Positions 15,529-22,659 of a stretch of DNA of 64,000 nt are shown piece after piece. Source of the DNA: Shimia thalassica (GTDB taxonomy: Bacteria > Pseudomonadota > Alphaproteobacteria > Rhodobacterales > Rhodobacteraceae); NCBI RefSeq assembly GCF_001458215.1, contig NZ_CYTW01000001.1, positions 1,116,001 to 1,180,000 of the forward strand, given 5' to 3'. Made by a program: the position numbers and the translations under genes. Each line of letters begins with the position of its first letter. The first letter of the stretch is position 1. Below the pieces are notes generated by a model that saw nothing but the letters and a program-made list of their open reading frames with translations, was not told the origin of the DNA and did not search any database.

Positions 15529-16136
15529 ATTCCTGTAATATTTGCAGTGCCACGCACAGCGTCTGCAAGCAGGGCGTGATACGACGCACGGCTGATCTCG
15601 ATTGCCCCTAGCGAGGCAAGATGCGGCGTTATGAATTGCGTATCAAAAAGCGTGAACCCACAGTTACGCAGATGCGCACAGAGATAGGCCAGCGCGATTT
15701 TGGACGCATTGGTGCGCTTTGAGAACATGCTTTCCCCAAAGAACGCAGACCCGAGTGTGACGCCGTACACGCCTCCGACCAAGATTGTGTCTTCCCAAAC
15801 CTCGAGGGAATGGGCGCAGCCGAGTTGATGCAGGCTTTGATAGAGGTCTCGGATTTCTGCGTTGATCCAAGTTTCTTCGCGATCCGCGCACCCGTCAACC
15901 ACCTCCAGAAAGTTCTCGTTTAGCGAAATACGGAAGGGGCTTTTGCGCAGAGCTTTGGACAGCGATTTGGAAACATGAAACGCGTCTAGCGGGAAGACGC
16001 CACGCTGGTGCGGGTCGACCCAGAAGATTTCCGGATCGTCCCTGTGTTCCGACATGGGGAAGACCCCCACGGAATAGGCGTGCATCAACAGCGCGGGTGT
16101 AAGCCCTTCGTCATTGGGTTGCACGCCGTGGGGCAT
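15474..16136 (-). CDS. aat: Leucyl/phenylalanyl-tRNA--protein transferase
   Basis: A 220-residue GNAT-fold enzyme that adds Leu or Phe to N-terminal Arg/Lys of proteins, marking them for ClpAP degradation (N-end rule). Family motifs are clear: 'AYSVGVFPMSE', 'FWVDPHQRGVFPLD', 'TWINAEI', 'HSLEVWEDTILVGGVYGVTLGSAFFGESMFS' (about 103-135) and 'FDTQFITPHLASLGA'. Its ATG shares a base with the accC stop (TAATG), so it is the last gene of accB-accC-aat. The 3' end overlaps the DUF2155 gene from the other strand. Confidence 0.96.
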   Translation of the reverse strand: MPHGVQPNDEGLTPALLMHAYSVGVFPMSEHRDDPEIFWVDPHQRGVFPLDAFHVSKSLSKALRKSPFRISLNENFLEVVDGCADREETWINAEIRDLYQSLHQLGCAHSLEVWEDTILVGGVYGVTLGSAFFGESMFSKRTNASKIALAYLCAHLRNCGFTLFDTQFITPHLASLGAIEISRASYHALLADAVRGTANITGIQLPSAEDAVLQRRTQTS

Positions 16137-17488
16137 TAGCCCTCGGCCAGATTGGTTTCCAGCCAGTGCTCTAGCCAGTGAATGTTGTAATCCCCTGTCA
16201 GGACATCGTCCTCGGCCAGAAGCGCGTGGAACAGTGGTACCGTGGTATCCACGCCATCCACGATCAACTCACCCAAGGCACGGTTCAGCCGTGCCAGAGC
16301 CTCTGGGCGGTCCCGACCATGTACGATCAGTTTGCCAATCAGAGAATCATAGAAGGGCGGGATGGAGTACCCGTTATAAAGCGCCGAATCCATGCGCACG
16401 CCCAATCCGCCAGGGGCGTGATAGGCTGTGATCTTGCCGGGGCAGGGAGAGAAGTTCGGCAAGCGCTCTGCGTTGATCCGCACTTCAATCGCGTGTCCGT
16501 TGATTTCAAGGTCGTCTTGCCCGAATGACATCGGTTGACCCGCTGCGACAAGGATTTGTTCGCGGACAAGATCGACACCAAAGATGGCCTCGGTAACGGG
16601 GTGCTCAACCTGCAAACGTGTGTTCATTTCGATGAAATAGAACTCGCCGTTTTCGTAGAGGAATTCGATTGTTCCGGCGCCGATATAATTGATCGCAGCA
16701 ACCGCATCGGAACAGACTTTTCCGATTTGGGCGCGCTCTTCGGGAGAAATACAGGGGCCTGGGGCTTCTTCAAAGACTTTCTGGTGACGGCGCTGCAACG
16801 AGCAGTCGCGTTCGCCCAGATGTACGGCATTGCCTTTGCCGTCGCCAAACACCTGAATCTCGATGTGCCGTGGCGTGGTCAGATACTTTTCAATATAGAC
16901 CTCGTCATTGCCAAAGTTGGATTTCCCCTCGGCACGGGCGGTCATAAAGGCGCTTTCCATGTCGGCGGCTGTGGCGGCAACTTTCATGCCGCGCCCACCG
17001 CCACCGGCAGTGGCTTTGACGATGACAGGATAGCCCATCTCGTCACCCAGCCGCTTGGCCGCCTCAAGATCGGGAACCCCACCGTCAGATCCGGGCACAC
17101 AAGGCACACCCAGTTTAATCATCGTATCTTTGGCGGTGATTTTATCACCCATCACCCGAATATGTTCGGCTGTAGGGCCAATAAAGGTCAGGCCGTGATC
17201 CTCGATGATCTGAACAAAGTTGGCATTTTCCGACAAAAATCCATAACCGGGATGGATCGCCTGGGCGCCAGTGATTTCACAAGCGGCAATGATTGCGGCC
17301 ATGTTGAGATAGCTGTCCGTACCCGGAGGGGGGCCGATACAAACTGCTTCGTCTGCCATGCGGACGTGCATCGCATCTGCGTCGGCGGTCGAATGAACCG
17401 CGACAGACTTGATGCCCATTTCGCGACACGCGCGGATCACGCGCAGGGCGATTTCTCCACGGTTTGCGATGAGAATTTTATCAAACAT
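16136..17488 (-). CDS. accC: Biotin carboxylase subunit of acetyl-CoA carboxylase
   Basis: A 450-residue ATP-grasp enzyme that carboxylates the biotin on AccB in the first step of fatty-acid synthesis. Motifs: N-terminal '[21 protein letters not shown]', glycine-rich ATP loop '[10 protein letters not shown]', '[17 protein letters not shown]', '[14 protein letters not shown]' and '[16 protein letters not shown]'. Nine bases after accB, directly coupled to aat. Confidence 0.98.
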
Positions 17489-17497
17489 GTCTGCGCC

Positions 17498-17992
17498 TTA
17501 CTCGATGATGACCAGCGGTGCACCAAATTCTACCGTGTCGCCATCACCCACAAGAATGCGTTTCACCGTTCCCGATTTGGGCGCGGGAATGTGGTTCATG
17601 GTTTTCATGGCTTCCACGATCAACAGGGTGTCCCCTTCCGAGATGGATGCTCCAACGCTCACAAAAGATGGCGCGCCGGGTTCGGGCTGCAAATAGATTG
17701 TACCAACCATCGGGGATGTAACCGCACCGGGGTGGCTGGCGGGATCATCCGTTGCAGGTGCTTCAAAAGCCGAGGGTGTCGCAGCTTCTGGTGCAGCCAC
17801 GGCAACAGGTGCGGCAGCAGCGGGGGCCATGACAGCGGCGGCAACTTGCGTCTGGCGGCTGACACGAACATTCAGGCTGTCGTCGTCACCATATTCACGC
17901 TTGACCTGAAGTTCGGTCAGGTCGTTTTCCCGCAGAAGTTCTGCCAATGCCTTGATGAAGGCAACATCGTTGTCGTGGTTCGTATTGCTCAT
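17498..17992 (-). CDS. accB: Biotin carboxyl carrier protein of acetyl-CoA carboxylase
   Basis: A 164-residue carrier: an N-terminal domain (1-50), a flexible Ala/Pro-rich linker (about 56-95) and a biotinyl domain with the lysine in 'EAMKTMN', preceded by 'GDTLLIV'. First gene of accB-accC-aat. A perfect inverted repeat lies 127-152 bases upstream of its start (18119-18144). Confidence 0.97.
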
Positions 17993-18118
17993 GTGTTTTG
18001 TCCCCTGCAGCGCATCCCATGCGCGGTTGAGTCTTTTTGGGTTTCCCTTGCGTCGCCTTATAGGTCAAAGCGACGCCAGAGAAAAGCGCGTGCGCACCGG
18101 TTCATTTGGACATGACTA

Positions 18119-18144
18119 GTACAAATTACGAGGGGAATTTGTAC
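18119..18144. promoter_or_regulatory. Perfect 9-base inverted repeat upstream of accB
   Basis: GTACAAATT (18119-18127), 8-base spacer, AATTTGTAC (18136-18144). A third related half, GTACAATTT, overlaps at 18141-18149. It lies between the end of the PAS-LuxR gene and the start of accB (both leftward). There is no T-run on either side, so an operator for accBC fits better than a terminator. Confidence 0.55.
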
Positions 18145-18162
18145 AATTTGGTCACTTAATGC

Positions 18163-18720
18163 TTACAAAGGCATTCCGGACAGCTTTGCAACCAGTTCTG
18201 CCAATTTTCGTGCGCCGAATTTACGAAGTAGTCGCGCGCGATACTCTTCGACGGTCCGGTAAGACAGTTTCAGCTCTAGACCGATTTCCTTGCTGGTCAA
18301 TCCGCGACAGGTCAATATTGCGACCTCGCGTTCACGTTGGGTCAGCTCGACAATCGGGCGTTCTTCCGAAAGATCCGCAAATGACCAGATGCCTCTTTGA
18401 AAAGGGTTTTCAGGGGTAAGGGACTGGCCTCGGACACGGCACCAGAACAGGGTGTCGTCCTTGCGTTTCATCACGCGTTCGTCGTTATAGCGTCCTGTTG
18501 CGCGCATGGCGGTCAATCCACGTTCCCCGATCGAATGAAAATCCTCTTCCGAGGCATAGAATTCGCCGAGCGACACCCCAACACATTTGGCAGGTTCCTG
18601 GTGAAACATATCGCCAAACGCATTGTTGCATCGTCGAATGATCCGGTTTTCAAGTACAGCCAGCCCGACAGGCGCAAATTCAAAGGCAATCGCATCAAGT
18701 TCCATGCGCACACCATGCAC
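18163..18720 (-). CDS. PAS-LuxR family transcriptional regulator
   Basis: A 185-residue protein with an N-terminal PAS-like sensor domain (about 8-115, 'FAPVGLAVLENRIIRRCNNAFGDMF', 'DDTLFWCRVRG') and a C-terminal GerE/LuxR helix-turn-helix (about 122-180, 'LTQREREVAILTCRGLTSKEIG', 'LSYRTVEEYRARLLRKFGA'). There is no receiver domain. It diverges from an acyl-CoA synthetase gene 98 bases away. The motif GTATTACTACG in that gap recurs before the CoA-transferase genes, so it may control the C4-acid module around it. The ligand is unknown. Confidence 0.88.
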   Translation of the reverse strand: MHGVRMELDAIAFEFAPVGLAVLENRIIRRCNNAFGDMFHQEPAKCVGVSLGEFYASEEDFHSIGERGLTAMRATGRYNDERVMKRKDDTLFWCRVRGQSLTPENPFQRGIWSFADLSEERPIVELTQREREVAILTCRGLTSKEIGLELKLSYRTVEEYRARLLRKFGARKLAELVAKLSGMPL

Positions 18721-18747
18721 GTAAGCCGACCAAAGGCCAAGGCCGCA

Positions 18748-18758
18748 GTATTACTACG
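18748..18758 (+). promoter_or_regulatory. Shared promoter motif, copy 1 (LuxR-acyl-CoA synthetase gap)
   Basis: GTATTACTACG, pseudo-palindromic, 61-71 bases before the synthetase ATG and 28-38 bases before the regulator ATG. Identical over 11 bases to 22633-22643. Proposed binding site of the adjacent PAS-LuxR protein. Confidence 0.5.
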
Positions 18759-18818
18759 AATTGCCAGTGACAAAGACCCTAGATTACCTCTGCTACAAGT
18801 GAGTGAGGAGGGGACGCA

Positions 18819-20333
18819 ATGAATTTGGCACTTTGGCTGGAACGCGTTGCGCAGGTGGCGCTAGAGCGGCCTGCAATTTTTCTGGGGCAAACCTGTACCG
18901 AGACGTATGGGTCTTTCTTTGAAAAGGCGTTGCGTGTGGCGGGGTGGCTGCACACCCAAGGGATCAAACCCGGAGATCGGGTTGGTTTGTTCATGAAAAA
19001 TGTCCCTGAATACCTGATTGCCCAATATGGGGTTTGGGCCGCAGGGGGCGTGGTTGTTCCGATCAACGCCAAACTTCATGCCAGAGAAGCCGCCTGGATT
19101 CTTGAGAATGCCGAAGCGCATTTTTGCTTTACGTCCAAAGGGCTGCACGCCGCACTTGCCAAGGTCACAACGCTTTCCTGTCTGGATGTCACATCATCTG
19201 ACTGGCGAAACGTCATTGCGCCCGCGCCGGTATTCGCACCTGTCCCCCGACAGGCAGATGACCTCAGCTGGTTGTTCTACACATCCGGCACAACCGGACG
19301 CCCCAAGGGGGTTATGATTACCAACCGCATGTTGCACGCGATGGCACTCAGCTATTTCGCGGATGTGGACGAGGTGACGGGCGAAGATACGGCCCTTTAT
19401 GCCGCGCCAATGAGCCATGGTGCAGGCATCTACAATCTCATGCACGTCATGAAGGGCGCCCGCCATGTCCTGCCCGCGTCGGGTGGGTTTGACGAAGCCG
19501 AGATCTTTGCGCTGGCGCGTTATCACAAGCGCGTCCACATGTTTTGCGCACCGACCATGGTGAAACGCATGACCGAAGTCGCCAAGGAAACGGGTGAAAC
19601 CGGAGAGGGGTTACGCACTATCGTTTATGGCGGTGGACCCATGTATGTGGCTGATATCGTTGAGGCCGTGGATCATTTTGGCCCGATCTTTGTTCAAATC
19701 TATGGGCAAGGCGAGTGTCCGATGTGCATTTCGGCGCTGTCGCGTTCTGACGTTTCGGATCGTTCACATGTAGATTGGCAAGCCCGCCTTGCGTCGGTGG
19801 GGCGGGCCCAAAGTGTTGTCGAACTTGCCATCGGAGACGAACAGGGCCGTCCGCTGCCAGCCGGAACCGTCGGCGAAATCATGGCCCGCGGGGATGCGGT
19901 GATGCCGGGGTATTGGAATAATCCGGAAGCCTCGGCCAAAACCATCGTCAATGGATGGTTGATGACCGGTGACATGGGCACCTTGAGCGACGACGGCTAC
20001 CTGACCCTGAAAGATCGTTCAAAGGACCTGATCATTTCAGGGGGCACCAATATTTACCCGCGCGAAGTAGAAGAGGCGCTTCTTTTGCATCCGGACGTGG
20101 TCGAGGTCTCGGTGGTCGGGCGGCCCCATCCGGAATGGGGTGAAGACGTGGTTGCATTTGTCGTGTGTCGCGGGGCGCTCGACGAAGACCGACTTGACGC
20201 CCACTGCCTTGACCAGATCGCCCGTTTCAAGCGGCCCAAGGCGTACTATGAAATTCGTGAACTGCCCAAGAACAACTATGGCAAGGTTCTGAAAACCGAA
20301 TTGCGCAAGCAACTGGAGACTTCAAATGACTGA
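18819..20333 (+). CDS. Class I adenylate-forming acyl-CoA synthetase
   Basis: A 504-residue AMP-dependent synthetase/ligase. The P-loop 'LFYTSGTTGRPKGV' (about 154), the 'YGQGECP' A5 motif, 'TGDMG' (A7), 'KDLIISGGTNIYPREVEE' (A8) and the C-terminal lysine in 'NNYGKVLK' (A10) are all present. It activates a carboxylic acid as the CoA thioester. The overlap of eight bases with 3-hydroxybutyrate dehydrogenase and nearby CoA-transferase suggests a short-chain hydroxy- or keto-acid substrate, but substrate cannot be read from sequence. GGAGGGG precedes the ATG. Confidence 0.9.
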   Translation: MNLALWLERVAQVALERPAIFLGQTCTETYGSFFEKALRVAGWLHTQGIKPGDRVGLFMKNVPEYLIAQYGVWAAGGVVVPINAKLHAREAAWILENAEAHFCFTSKGLHAALAKVTTLSCLDVTSSDWRNVIAPAPVFAPVPRQADDLSWLFYTSGTTGRPKGVMITNRMLHAMALSYFADVDEVTGEDTALYAAPMSHGAGIYNLMHVMKGARHVLPASGGFDEAEIFALARYHKRVHMFCAPTMVKRMTEVAKETGETGEGLRTIVYGGGPMYVADIVEAVDHFGPIFVQIYGQGECPMCISALSRSDVSDRSHVDWQARLASVGRAQSVVELAIGDEQGRPLPAGTVGEIMARGDAVMPGYWNNPEASAKTIVNGWLMTGDMGTLSDDGYLTLKDRSKDLIISGGTNIYPREVEEALLLHPDVVEVSVVGRPHPEWGEDVVAFVVCRGALDEDRLDAHCLDQIARFKRPKAYYEIRELPKNNYGKVLKTELRKQLETSND

Positions 20334-21129
20334 TTTGCATGGGAAAACTGCTTTTGTCACCGGCTCGGTTCAGGGGATCGGACTTGCCATCGCACAAGAG
20401 CTTGCCAAGGCGGGCGCGCGCATCGGTGTGCATGGTCTGGCAACCCGGGAAGAGGCCGAGGCGACCTGTGAGCTGTTGGAAAAGGCAGGTGCCCCCGAGG
20501 CCAGGTTTTTTGAGGGAGACCTGCGCGATGCCAACGCGATTGAGGCCATGATGCAGGGCGTCTCAGATTGGGGAGGCGCGGATATTCTGGTGAATAACGC
20601 GGGCATTCAACACACGGCACCGCTTGCCGAGATGCCCGCCGAAAAATGGGATGCGATCCTTGCAATCAACCTGTCGGCGGCGTTTCACACGATGCAAAAG
20701 GCGATGCCTTCGATGGCGCAACGGGGGTATGGCCGGGTGATTAACATCGCTTCGGTTCATGGCGTGGCGGCTTCAAAAGAAAAGGCGCCTTATTGCGCGG
20801 CAAAATTCGGGTTAGTAGGGCTCAGCAAAGTGGCCGCTCTGGAATACGCGAACGCCGGAAGTAAGGCCGCTGGCGGGATTACGGTGAACTGTATCTGTCC
20901 GGGATGGACGGAAACCGCGATCATCGAACCCCAGATCCAAGCCCGTGCCGCGGCCCATAATGGCGATAGGAACGCAGGTATCGCGGAATTGCGCTCGGAA
21001 AAACAGCCGTCGCAACGCACATCCGATCCATCTGAGATCGGCGCTTTGGCGCTTTGGCTTTGTAATCCGGTGGCGCACAACATCACGGGCACATCCATCC
21101 CTGTCGATGGGGGATGGACGGCGCAGTAA
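20326..21129 (+). CDS. bdhA: D-3-hydroxybutyrate dehydrogenase (SDR family)
   Basis: A 267-residue classical short-chain dehydrogenase: NAD loop 'TGSVQGIG', 'NNAG' at about 90, catalytic S in 'NIASVHG' and Y-C-A-A-K, plus the C-terminal 'SIPVDGGWTAQ' typical of D-beta-hydroxybutyrate dehydrogenases. It interconverts 3-hydroxybutyrate and acetoacetate, linking PHB or ketone-body use to the CoA-transferase encoded just downstream on the opposite strand. Slightly longer than usual (about 258) through an insertion near residue 180-190. Confidence 0.88.
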   Translation: MTDLHGKTAFVTGSVQGIGLAIAQELAKAGARIGVHGLATREEAEATCELLEKAGAPEARFFEGDLRDANAIEAMMQGVSDWGGADILVNNAGIQHTAPLAEMPAEKWDAILAINLSAAFHTMQKAMPSMAQRGYGRVINIASVHGVAASKEKAPYCAAKFGLVGLSKVAALEYANAGSKAAGGITVNCICPGWTETAIIEPQIQARAAAHNGDRNAGIAELRSEKQPSQRTSDPSEIGALALWLCNPVAHNITGTSIPVDGGWTAQ

Positions 21130-21154
21130 GTGCGTTAAGGACATTGCAAAAGCA

Positions 21155-21182
21155 AAAAGCCCGGCTTTTGAGCCGGGCTTTT
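21155..21182. terminator. Bidirectional terminator between bdhA and scoB
   Basis: A perfect stem AAAAGCCCGGCT / AGCCGGGCTTTT with loop TTTG, sitting in the 72-base gap of two convergent genes; A- and T-runs serve both strands. Confidence 0.9.
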
Positions 21183-21201
21183 CATCATTAATAACGGTCG
21201 T

Positions 21202-21831
21202 TTAGTTGACCAGAGTTGCCTCGGTTGCGGCGCGGAACTCTTCATCGGTAACGCCATCAGCCAATTCAACCAGCTTCAGACCGCCTTCGACCACGTCCAT
21301 CACGCCAAGGTTGGTGATGATGCGGTCAACAACGCCTCTGCCAGTCAGAGGCAACGTGCATTCTTTGAGAACTTTGGAAACGCCGTGCTTGTTGGCATGA
21401 TCCATGACCACAACAACACGGCCAACACCAGCCACAAGATCCATCGCGCCGCCCATGCCTTTGACCAGCTTGCCGGGGATCATCCAGTTGGCGAGATCAC
21501 CGTTTTCGGCCACTTCCATCGCGCCAAGGATCGCCATAGCGATTTTGCCGCCACGGATCATGGCAAACGACGTTGCGCTGTCAAAATACGCGGTCTGCGG
21601 CAGCTCAGTGATGGTCTGTTTACCAGCGTTGATTAGGTCGGGGTCTTCTTCGCCTTCATAAGGGAAGGGGCCCATGCCCAACATACCGTTTTCCGATTGC
21701 AGGGTGACTTCGACGCCTTCGGGGATGTAATTGGACACCAGCGTTGGAATGCCGATTCCAAGGTTCACATACCAACCGTCTTGCAGTTCCTGAGCCGCGC
21801 GTGCAGCCATTTGGTTACGATCCCAAGGCAT
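21202..21831 (-). CDS. scoB: 3-oxoacid CoA-transferase subunit B
   Basis: A 209-residue family I CoA-transferase beta subunit: '[25 protein letters not shown]', the catalytic glutamate in '[12 protein letters not shown]' and '[18 protein letters not shown]'. With subunit A it moves CoA from succinyl-CoA to acetoacetate, opening acetoacetate to thiolysis. Its ATG overlaps the subunit A stop as TAATG. Confidence 0.93.
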
Positions 21832-22553
21832 TATGCTTCCTCCCGCTTGCGTACGGTGCGCTGTTCGATGCGCTTTTCTGCGTCGCTTTTGATAATCCGG
21901 TTCACATAGATGCCCGGCAAGTGGATCATGTCCGGGTCAAGCGAGCCGGTCTCGACGATCTCTTCCACTTCGGCCACGCAAACCTTGCCACATGTCGCGG
22001 CAGGCAGGTTGAAGTTGCGTGCAGTCTTGCGGAACACGAGGTTGCCCGTTGCATCCGCTTTCCATGCTTTCACGATGGCGAGATCGGCAAAAATACCTTC
22101 TTCCATGATGTAGTCTTCCATGGCGGAGTCTTCGCCGGTGGGAAACTGCTTTTCGAACTTGCCGTCTGCAATCACGGTGCCAACGCCGGTCTTGGTAAAG
22201 AACCCGGGGATGCCTGCGCCACCGGCGCGCATACGCTCGGCCAGCGTGCCTTGAGGCGTGAACTCCAGCTCAAGCTCGCCCGACAGATACTGGCGCATGA
22301 ATTCTGCGTTTTCGCCCACATAGGACGAGATCATTTTGCGCACCTGCTTGGTTTCCAACAGGATGCCGATGCCTGCGCCGTCAACGCCCGCGTTGTTGGA
22401 AGCAAAGGTCAGGTCCTTGACGCCCGAGTCCTTGATCGCGTTCAGCAACAGTTCGGGGATGCCGCAGAGACCGAAACCGCCAGACGCGATCAACATGTCA
22501 TCCTTGAGCAGCCCGTCGAGTGCCTCGGTGGCATTCGCATAGACTTTATTCAT
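21831..22553 (-). CDS. scoA: 3-oxoacid CoA-transferase subunit A
   Basis: A 240-residue alpha subunit with '[19 protein letters not shown]' near the N-terminus, '[31 protein letters not shown]' (about 52-83) and '[20 protein letters not shown]'. I start at 22553, since GGGAG lies eight bases upstream; the frame extends ten codons further but without a better site. First gene of the scoAB pair; the shared LuxR-type motif lies 80-90 bases upstream. Confidence 0.93.
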
Positions 22554-22632
22554 GGAATTCTCCCTCTTATCCGGAATTGCCACCGTTTTGACGGGACGTC
22601 ACTGCGGAGTCAATGAACAGGGAGCGGGGGTC

Positions 22633-22643
22633 GTATTACTACG
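22633..22643. promoter_or_regulatory. Shared promoter motif, copy 2 (upstream of scoA)
   Basis: GTATTACTACG, identical to 18748-18758. A second CGTATTA copy lies 22 bases further (22654-22660). Candidate site for the PAS-LuxR regulator upstream of scoAB. Confidence 0.5.
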
Positions 22644-22659
22644 GGCGGTTATACGTATT

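Follow-up and report, generated by a model that had tools for sequence, protein, structure and literature searches.

LuxR-type regulators are described as binding inverted repeats, and for one of them, the activator CrbR of the LuxR family, the ACTU motif, itself an imperfect inverted repeat, mediates the activation of acetyl-CoA synthetase genes (PMC5715377). Proteins in which a PAS domain precedes the LuxR-type helix-turn-helix (HTH) include VqmA of Vibrio, the light-activated EL222 of Erythrobacter litoralis and, by their domain names, PimM and PteF of Streptomyces. We report the computational analysis of a further protein of this kind, designated REG1, which is encoded in a stretch of 64,000 nucleotides from Shimia thalassica (Rhodobacteraceae; contig NZ_CYTW01000001.1, positions 1,116,001 to 1,180,000; hereafter the window), together with that of a short palindromic site that stands twice near its gene, once before an acyl-CoA synthetase operon and once before the 3-oxoacid CoA-transferase genes scoA and scoB. 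We consider it highly probable that REG1 is a one-component activator of the genes that lead acetoacetate and 3-hydroxybutyrate into the tricarboxylic acid (TCA) cycle, and that it acts through this conserved site. The conservation of the sites, the geometry of the promoters and the co-occurrence of site and regulator carry this reading, under which REG1 would bind the site, activate transcription from it and receive its signal at the PAS domain.

REG1 scores above the cut-offs of both PF13426 and PF00196, and among the Pfam families found in it there is neither a receiver domain, a feature of the FixJ, CrbR and NarL response regulators, nor an autoinducer-binding domain, a feature of LuxR quorum-sensing proteins. 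In this it differs from CrbR, which PMC5715377 presents as the response regulator of the kinase CrbS; the ACTU example printed there, TACTACCATCGTCGAAT, also differs by eye from the REG1 site, CGTAGWAATACG. An AlphaFold2 model of REG1 (mean predicted local distance difference test score, pLDDT, of 78; predicted template-modelling score, pTM, of 0.58) has a PAS-HTH arrangement, and a Foldseek search with this model returned the PAS domain 3mqo as the best match, followed over the whole length, with moderate template-modelling (TM) scores, by VqmA and EL222. The closest solved PAS relative is 3mqo/3mqq, which comprises only the PAS domain of a LuxR-family regulator (E 6.9e-32, about 41% identity). 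VqmA (PDB 6ide, 6ugl, 7dwm) is, like REG1, a one-component protein with a PAS domain followed by a LuxR HTH (TM about 0.5-0.6), but identity between the two is about 20%, and VqmA is, by its PDB titles, the quorum-sensing receptor for 3,5-dimethylpyrazin-2-ol (DPO), whereas the predicted targets of REG1 are metabolic operons. EL222 (PDB 3p7n, 8a5r) likewise joins a PAS-type sensor to a LuxR HTH. His62 of the window REG1 is not conserved in the ortholog alignment. The photoactive LOV cysteine motif, NCRFLQ, was not seen when the aligned REG1 orthologs were read by eye, and light sensing is therefore not expected for REG1. PimM and PteF are reported to govern antibiotic gene clusters (PMC9774167 and PMC9394381). 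The listings returned by our searches of an open-access library showed no description of the regulon or the site, and what we describe is a new regulon of the known one-component PAS-LuxR architecture.

The features on which the argument draws are as follows, in window coordinates.

18163..18720, minus strand: REG1, PAS-LuxR one-component regulator, assigned from Pfam PAS_9 and GerE, the ortholog alignment and its tree clade; PAS domain at about residues 12-118, GerE/LuxR HTH at residues 126-178; likely start the ATG at 18705, where many alignment rows start, and not the GTG at 18720
18748..18758, plus strand: site 1, GTATTACTACG, operator-like, in a class II-like position at the divergent synthetase promoter
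18761..18766, plus strand: putative -35 element (TTGCCA) of the synthetase operon, at a fixed position after the site in the aligned gaps
about 18784-18790, plus strand: putative -10 element of the synthetase operon
18819..20333, plus strand: acyl-CoA synthetase of the AMP-binding family, divergent from REG1
20326..21129, plus strand: short-chain dehydrogenase/reductase (SDR), 3-hydroxybutyrate dehydrogenase-like, overlapping the synthetase gene as in an operon
21202..21831, minus strand: scoB, 3-oxoacid CoA-transferase subunit B, above the cut-off of TIGR02428
21831..22583, minus strand: scoA, 3-oxoacid CoA-transferase subunit A, above the cut-off of TIGR02429; likely start the ATG at 22553, a start kept in relatives
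22608..22613, minus strand: putative -35 element (TTGACT) of scoAB, with site 2 lying 19 bp upstream
22632..22643, minus strand: site 2, CGTAGTAATACG, in a class I-like position before scoAB
22652..22657, minus strand: possible accessory half-site TACGTA, 14 bp upstream of site 2, start to start

The scoA and scoB genes are convergent with the synthetase operon, and site 2, upstream of scoA, is as a 12-mer an imperfect palindrome, CGTA-N4-TACG. A preliminary description made from the letters of the window had named these genes correctly (the domain and family matches give a PAS and GerE regulator, an AMP-binding synthetase, a 3-hydroxybutyrate dehydrogenase-like SDR, scoB and scoA) and had located GTATTACTACG exactly at 18748-18758 and, within the span of site 2, at 22633-22643; both positions are right, and the window holds no further exact copy.

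The site before scoA is conserved. We collected 40 relative loci from genome contigs, 35 of them with a REG1 ortholog (L039-L073 in our numbering of loci, mostly Shimia and Cognatishimia) and five matching in the HTH only. scoA is present in 28 of the 35 ortholog loci, and (C/A)GTAGWA(A/C)TAC precedes it in every one of these, which bears out the expectation of the preliminary description that the motif should be kept in orthologous promoters. The distance from the site to the TTGAC box is 18-19 bp in 27 of the 28 and 30 bp in the remaining one, where the additional 11-12 bp amount to about one helical turn. In a wider set drawn from the family, which has some genomes in common with the 28 loci, this spacing is 17-19 bp in 18 of the 25 promoters that have both elements. 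A CTAC or TACGTA half-site lies 14-15 bp further upstream in 13 of the 28 related promoters, as it does in the window, and any half-site match within 26 bp upstream is found in 14 of the 28 as against 15% of shuffles; this accessory half-site upstream of site 2 is suggestive only.

Beside the regulator, the presence of the site in the divergent gap tracks the presence of the synthetase. Among L039-L073 the gap site occurs in all ten loci with an adjacent divergent synthetase and in one of the 25 others. That single case, L070, has a thiolase in the place of the synthetase, which came to notice through the site and not before it; individual neighbours were not named for the 24 loci that lack the site, and in L051 and L062 the synthetase stands further off and there is no site. 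In the REG1 clade of the tree, which comprises 32 ortholog loci, a synthetase hit within the fetched flanks of about 1.5 kb is accompanied by the site in 20 of 21 cases, and none of the 11 loci lacking such a hit has it (0/11). The exception among the 21 is genome G092, which carries the variant CGTATTAATAC; here, and in G234, the immediate divergent gene is a thiolase. A TTG follows the site at 2-3 nt in 30 of 33 gaps, and in 9 of the 33 a -10 box of the strict TA...T form stands at the spacing expected, compared with 0.24% of shuffles having both elements.

The scoA site also keeps company with the regulator across the family, of which we sampled 295 genomes and found homologs in 75 at E 1e-30 or better, distant ones included. 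Of the 264 family genomes that carry scoA, 90, picked non-randomly by regulator status and list position, supplied the scoA promoters examined, ten of which were cut a few bases away from the start codon; the 90 take in 29 of the 32 genomes with REG1, here meaning the close ortholog (G329, one of the three left over, has the site), the rest having distant homologs only (G034, at E 3.4e-27, was placed in this group) or none at E 1e-30. With a site score cut-off of 8 (shuffled 95% point 7.0, 99% point 9.9), the site is found in 25 of 29 REG1 genomes, 4 of 24 with distant homologs only and none of 37 without a homolog, and at a cut-off of 9.9 the genomes that score number 24, 3 and 0, respectively; for REG1 against no-homolog genomes Fisher's p is 2e-14, uncorrected for ancestry. 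Since the TTGAC box is kept in 50 of 57 site-less scoA promoters, it is the site, and not the whole promoter, that tracks the regulator. A pattern scan of the 295 genomes for the site with TTGAC gave 31 matches, 12 of them before scoA and all 12 in homolog-bearing genomes; the backwards control matched in more than 31 places, so that the 12 scoA places are evidence and the scan total is not. The other 19 matches, which lacked a scoA hit, were dropped, several looking alike by eye, as though a single coding gene had been read in antisense. An accC tree of 60 of these genomes requires at least 11 changes in REG1 and 13 in the site; six independent pairs taken from its well-supported branches include, on average, 4.1 in which site and REG1 agree and 0.0 in which they are opposed. 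In G034 (L252) and G239 (L253) a distant homolog (35-37%) is divergent to scoA, and the gap between them holds related sites, of the CTACGTA type and CGTAAGAATACG; this is another arrangement of the same regulator-scoA pairing.

The next recurring exact site in the genus lies inside gltX, upstream of the citrate synthase gene gltA. The codons ACC GTA TTA CTA CGG are invariant in the gltX of 11 genomes, and the residues differ in the eight site-less relatives shown; TTA and CTA are rare, at 4% and 3% of the leucine codons in gltX genes with the site included. In the 11-row codon alignment, the 17 nt of ACCGTATTACTACGGGA make up one of only two invariant runs longer than 16 nt, the other being a palindrome of 20 nt that immediately precedes a TTGACG box embedded in gltX. 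This 20-nt stretch reads TCAGTAT-8-ATACTGA in several rows and is followed by TTGACG and TAGCTG (L295-L307). The TTGACG box appears, from its sequence, to belong to the gltA promoter, at which a second regulator probably acts; the embedded promoter is found in the window's own species as well (L306), without the site. In four genomes (G014, G004, G008 and G017) this gltX went unmatched at the search threshold; beside a comEC-like open reading frame (ORF) each carries a CGTAGAAATAC site, and three show gltA on the other side. In G004 and G008, the two that could be aligned, the site stands 458-460 bp before gltA, as compared with 459-470 bp in five gltX-bearing genomes shown, and the gltA promoter core is kept.

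Our proposal is that REG1, most probably as a dimer, recognises the palindrome CGTAGWAATACG. At the synthetase/dehydrogenase operon, where the site abuts a -35-like TTG, it would act by class II activation, and at scoAB, where the site lies 19 bp upstream of the TTGACT -35 element with its centre near -60, by class I activation. The PAS domain would receive its signal as a change in a metabolite or in redox state. In Shimia thalassica the regulon would channel four-carbon acids to acetyl-CoA by way of the dehydrogenase, the CoA-transferase and the synthetase, and in some relatives it would add a thiolase, next to the regulator, and the citrate synthase gene gltA. Taken across lineages these targets (dehydrogenase, CoA-transferase, thiolase, citrate synthase and synthetase) fit the oxidation of 3-hydroxybutyrate and acetoacetate.

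The sharing of the site could be an accident or neutral, and the preliminary description had dismissed this on the ground that 11 bases common to two short promoter regions are improbable by chance. That argument is unsound on its own: 10 different 11-mers are common to the 41 intergenic stretches of the window, as defined from crude ORF calls, which is about the level of shuffling (mean 6.1, maximum 17), and 2133 different 11-mers occur at least twice in the window. The 4.35 Mb genome has no exact copy of GTATTACTACG besides the two in the window, where an estimate from composition gives 1.3, and genome-wide enrichment is lacking. The motif is nevertheless more than chance because of where its matches lie and because those places are conserved; given this conservation and geometry in relatives, and fixation at the level of nucleotides inside gltX, we regard coincidence as hardly credible. 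It is improbable, too, that the site is owned by another regulator co-inherited with REG1, such as a PAS-LuxR paralog or some unrelated factor. The window's genome does encode a REG1 paralog at 51% with a similar HTH (G000:C1:630364-630879, L137), beside which no obvious four-carbon-acid gene was seen when the stretch was read, but genomes with distant homologs only mostly lack the scoA site, two of the four that have it (G034 and G239) carry their homolog beside scoA, G182 has a paralog-type protein with neither REG1 nor the site, and the site sits in REG1's own divergent gap.

This last position, with site 1 within about 50 bp of the REG1 start codon, might instead suggest that REG1 is a repressor or autoregulator and that the gap site controls its own gene. 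We give this little chance, as where the synthetase is missing beside the regulator the site is nearly always missing also (24 of 25 loci among L039-L073, 11 of 11 in the REG1 clade), many rows without a gap site still have a TTGGC-like element ahead of the regulator, and the sites stand upstream of the -35 element or abut it, which are the positions of an activator. A less remote alternative, though one we still think unlikely, accepts the conserved site and questions the pathway, with the synthetase, dehydrogenase and scoAB serving other acyl substrates. The synthetase stays under the curated cut-off for each of the 25 NCBIfam models shown (of 106), for the SDR a subfamily model is the only one passed (PRK12429, 272.3 bits for a cut-off of 258) while the score for TIGR01963 is too low (266.1 for 307.05), and the thiolase of the relatives belongs to a generic thiolase-domain subfamily. 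Against this, scoA and scoB are well above the cut-offs of the 3-oxoacid CoA-transferase models, and the further targets in relatives, thiolase and citrate synthase, fit a flow from acetoacetyl-CoA to the TCA cycle.

Several observations weigh against REG1 as the activator of these genes. Its binding to the site and its activation of the promoters are deduced from comparison of sequences, and paralogs with similar HTHs, such as the 51% paralog, could share the site. The motif is not enriched genome-wide over its backwards control: allowing up to one mismatch there are 8 places in the window's genome and 72 for the backwards pattern, and across 25 genomes of the genus CGTAGWAATAC is matched 56 times and its control 101 times. 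Four of the 29 REG1 genomes (G118, G293, G100 and G237) have no recognisable scoA site, three of them keeping the site beside the regulator and G237 only a degenerate one. The weight matrix was built from the sites of L039-L073, so that G000, G004, G148 and G252 are non-independent tests, and the phylogeny-aware test is non-significant (median sign-test p 0.125 with REG1 leading and 0.0625 with the site leading), these modest values arising because few branches are well supported; one pair was opposite in 2 of 200 pairings. As to geometry, the strict -10 box is found in only 9 of the 33 gaps, the site lies further than usual from the -35 element in G252, G143, G308, G092 and G234, no TTGAC was found in the scoA promoter of G089, and the gltA site is at an unusual distance, about 150 bp upstream of the -35 element there.

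The preliminary description had further proposed that the regulator controls the use of ketone bodies and polyhydroxybutyrate (PHB). The first half of this stands, through conserved and co-occurring sites at genes of acetoacetate and acetyl-CoA metabolism, and the PHB half, like the chance argument, is not supported: the only near-match at a pha gene, GTATAACTACG, lies inside the coding sequence of phaR and is confined to 1 of the 25 genus genomes, or 2 of 25 if one more mismatch is allowed, and this candidate was rejected. The flanks of phaR, about 1.5 kb on each side, contained no other match to the patterns used; no separate search was made at phaC, phaZ or further copies of bdhA. Of the five other near-matches in the window's genome, none looked like a four-carbon-acid gene, the names being given by eye: three fall within ORFs (one short and SnoaL-like, one ligase-like, one exported-looking), one separates two uncharacterised ORFs and one is next to an FlhA-like ORF.

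If REG1 acts as proposed, an uncharacterised regulator present, with distant homologs included, in about a quarter of the sampled family genomes (75/295) would be assigned a function along with its DNA site and a regulon open to testing, and it would be shown how marine bacteria of this kind switch to acetoacetate and 3-hydroxybutyrate. More tentatively, and as one joint claim, we suggest that in the Rhodobacteraceae a previously undescribed PAS-LuxR protein may be a dedicated ketone-body-to-TCA switch, that its regulon (synthetase/dehydrogenase, thiolase, CoA-transferase and citrate synthase) may have been rewired lineage by lineage through gain and loss of a short site, and that in one lineage this site may have arisen inside gltX, where it changed amino acids, forced rare codons and outlasted gltX itself. 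The gltX-embedded site is, in nature, a clear case of protein-coding sequence shaped by a likely operator.

In the neighbourhood of the regulator, accB and accC come after REG1 on the same strand (window 16136-18720), and REG1 is a conserved upstream neighbour of this pair, standing just upstream of accB-accC in 26 of 29 REG1 genomes, by which its orthology is backed by synteny. REG1's own putative promoter (window 18705-18745) consists of TTGGCC, a 17-bp spacer and CATGGT, the TTGGC element being present in many relatives; as this promoter ends about 6 nt before the ATG, the REG1 mRNA may be leaderless.

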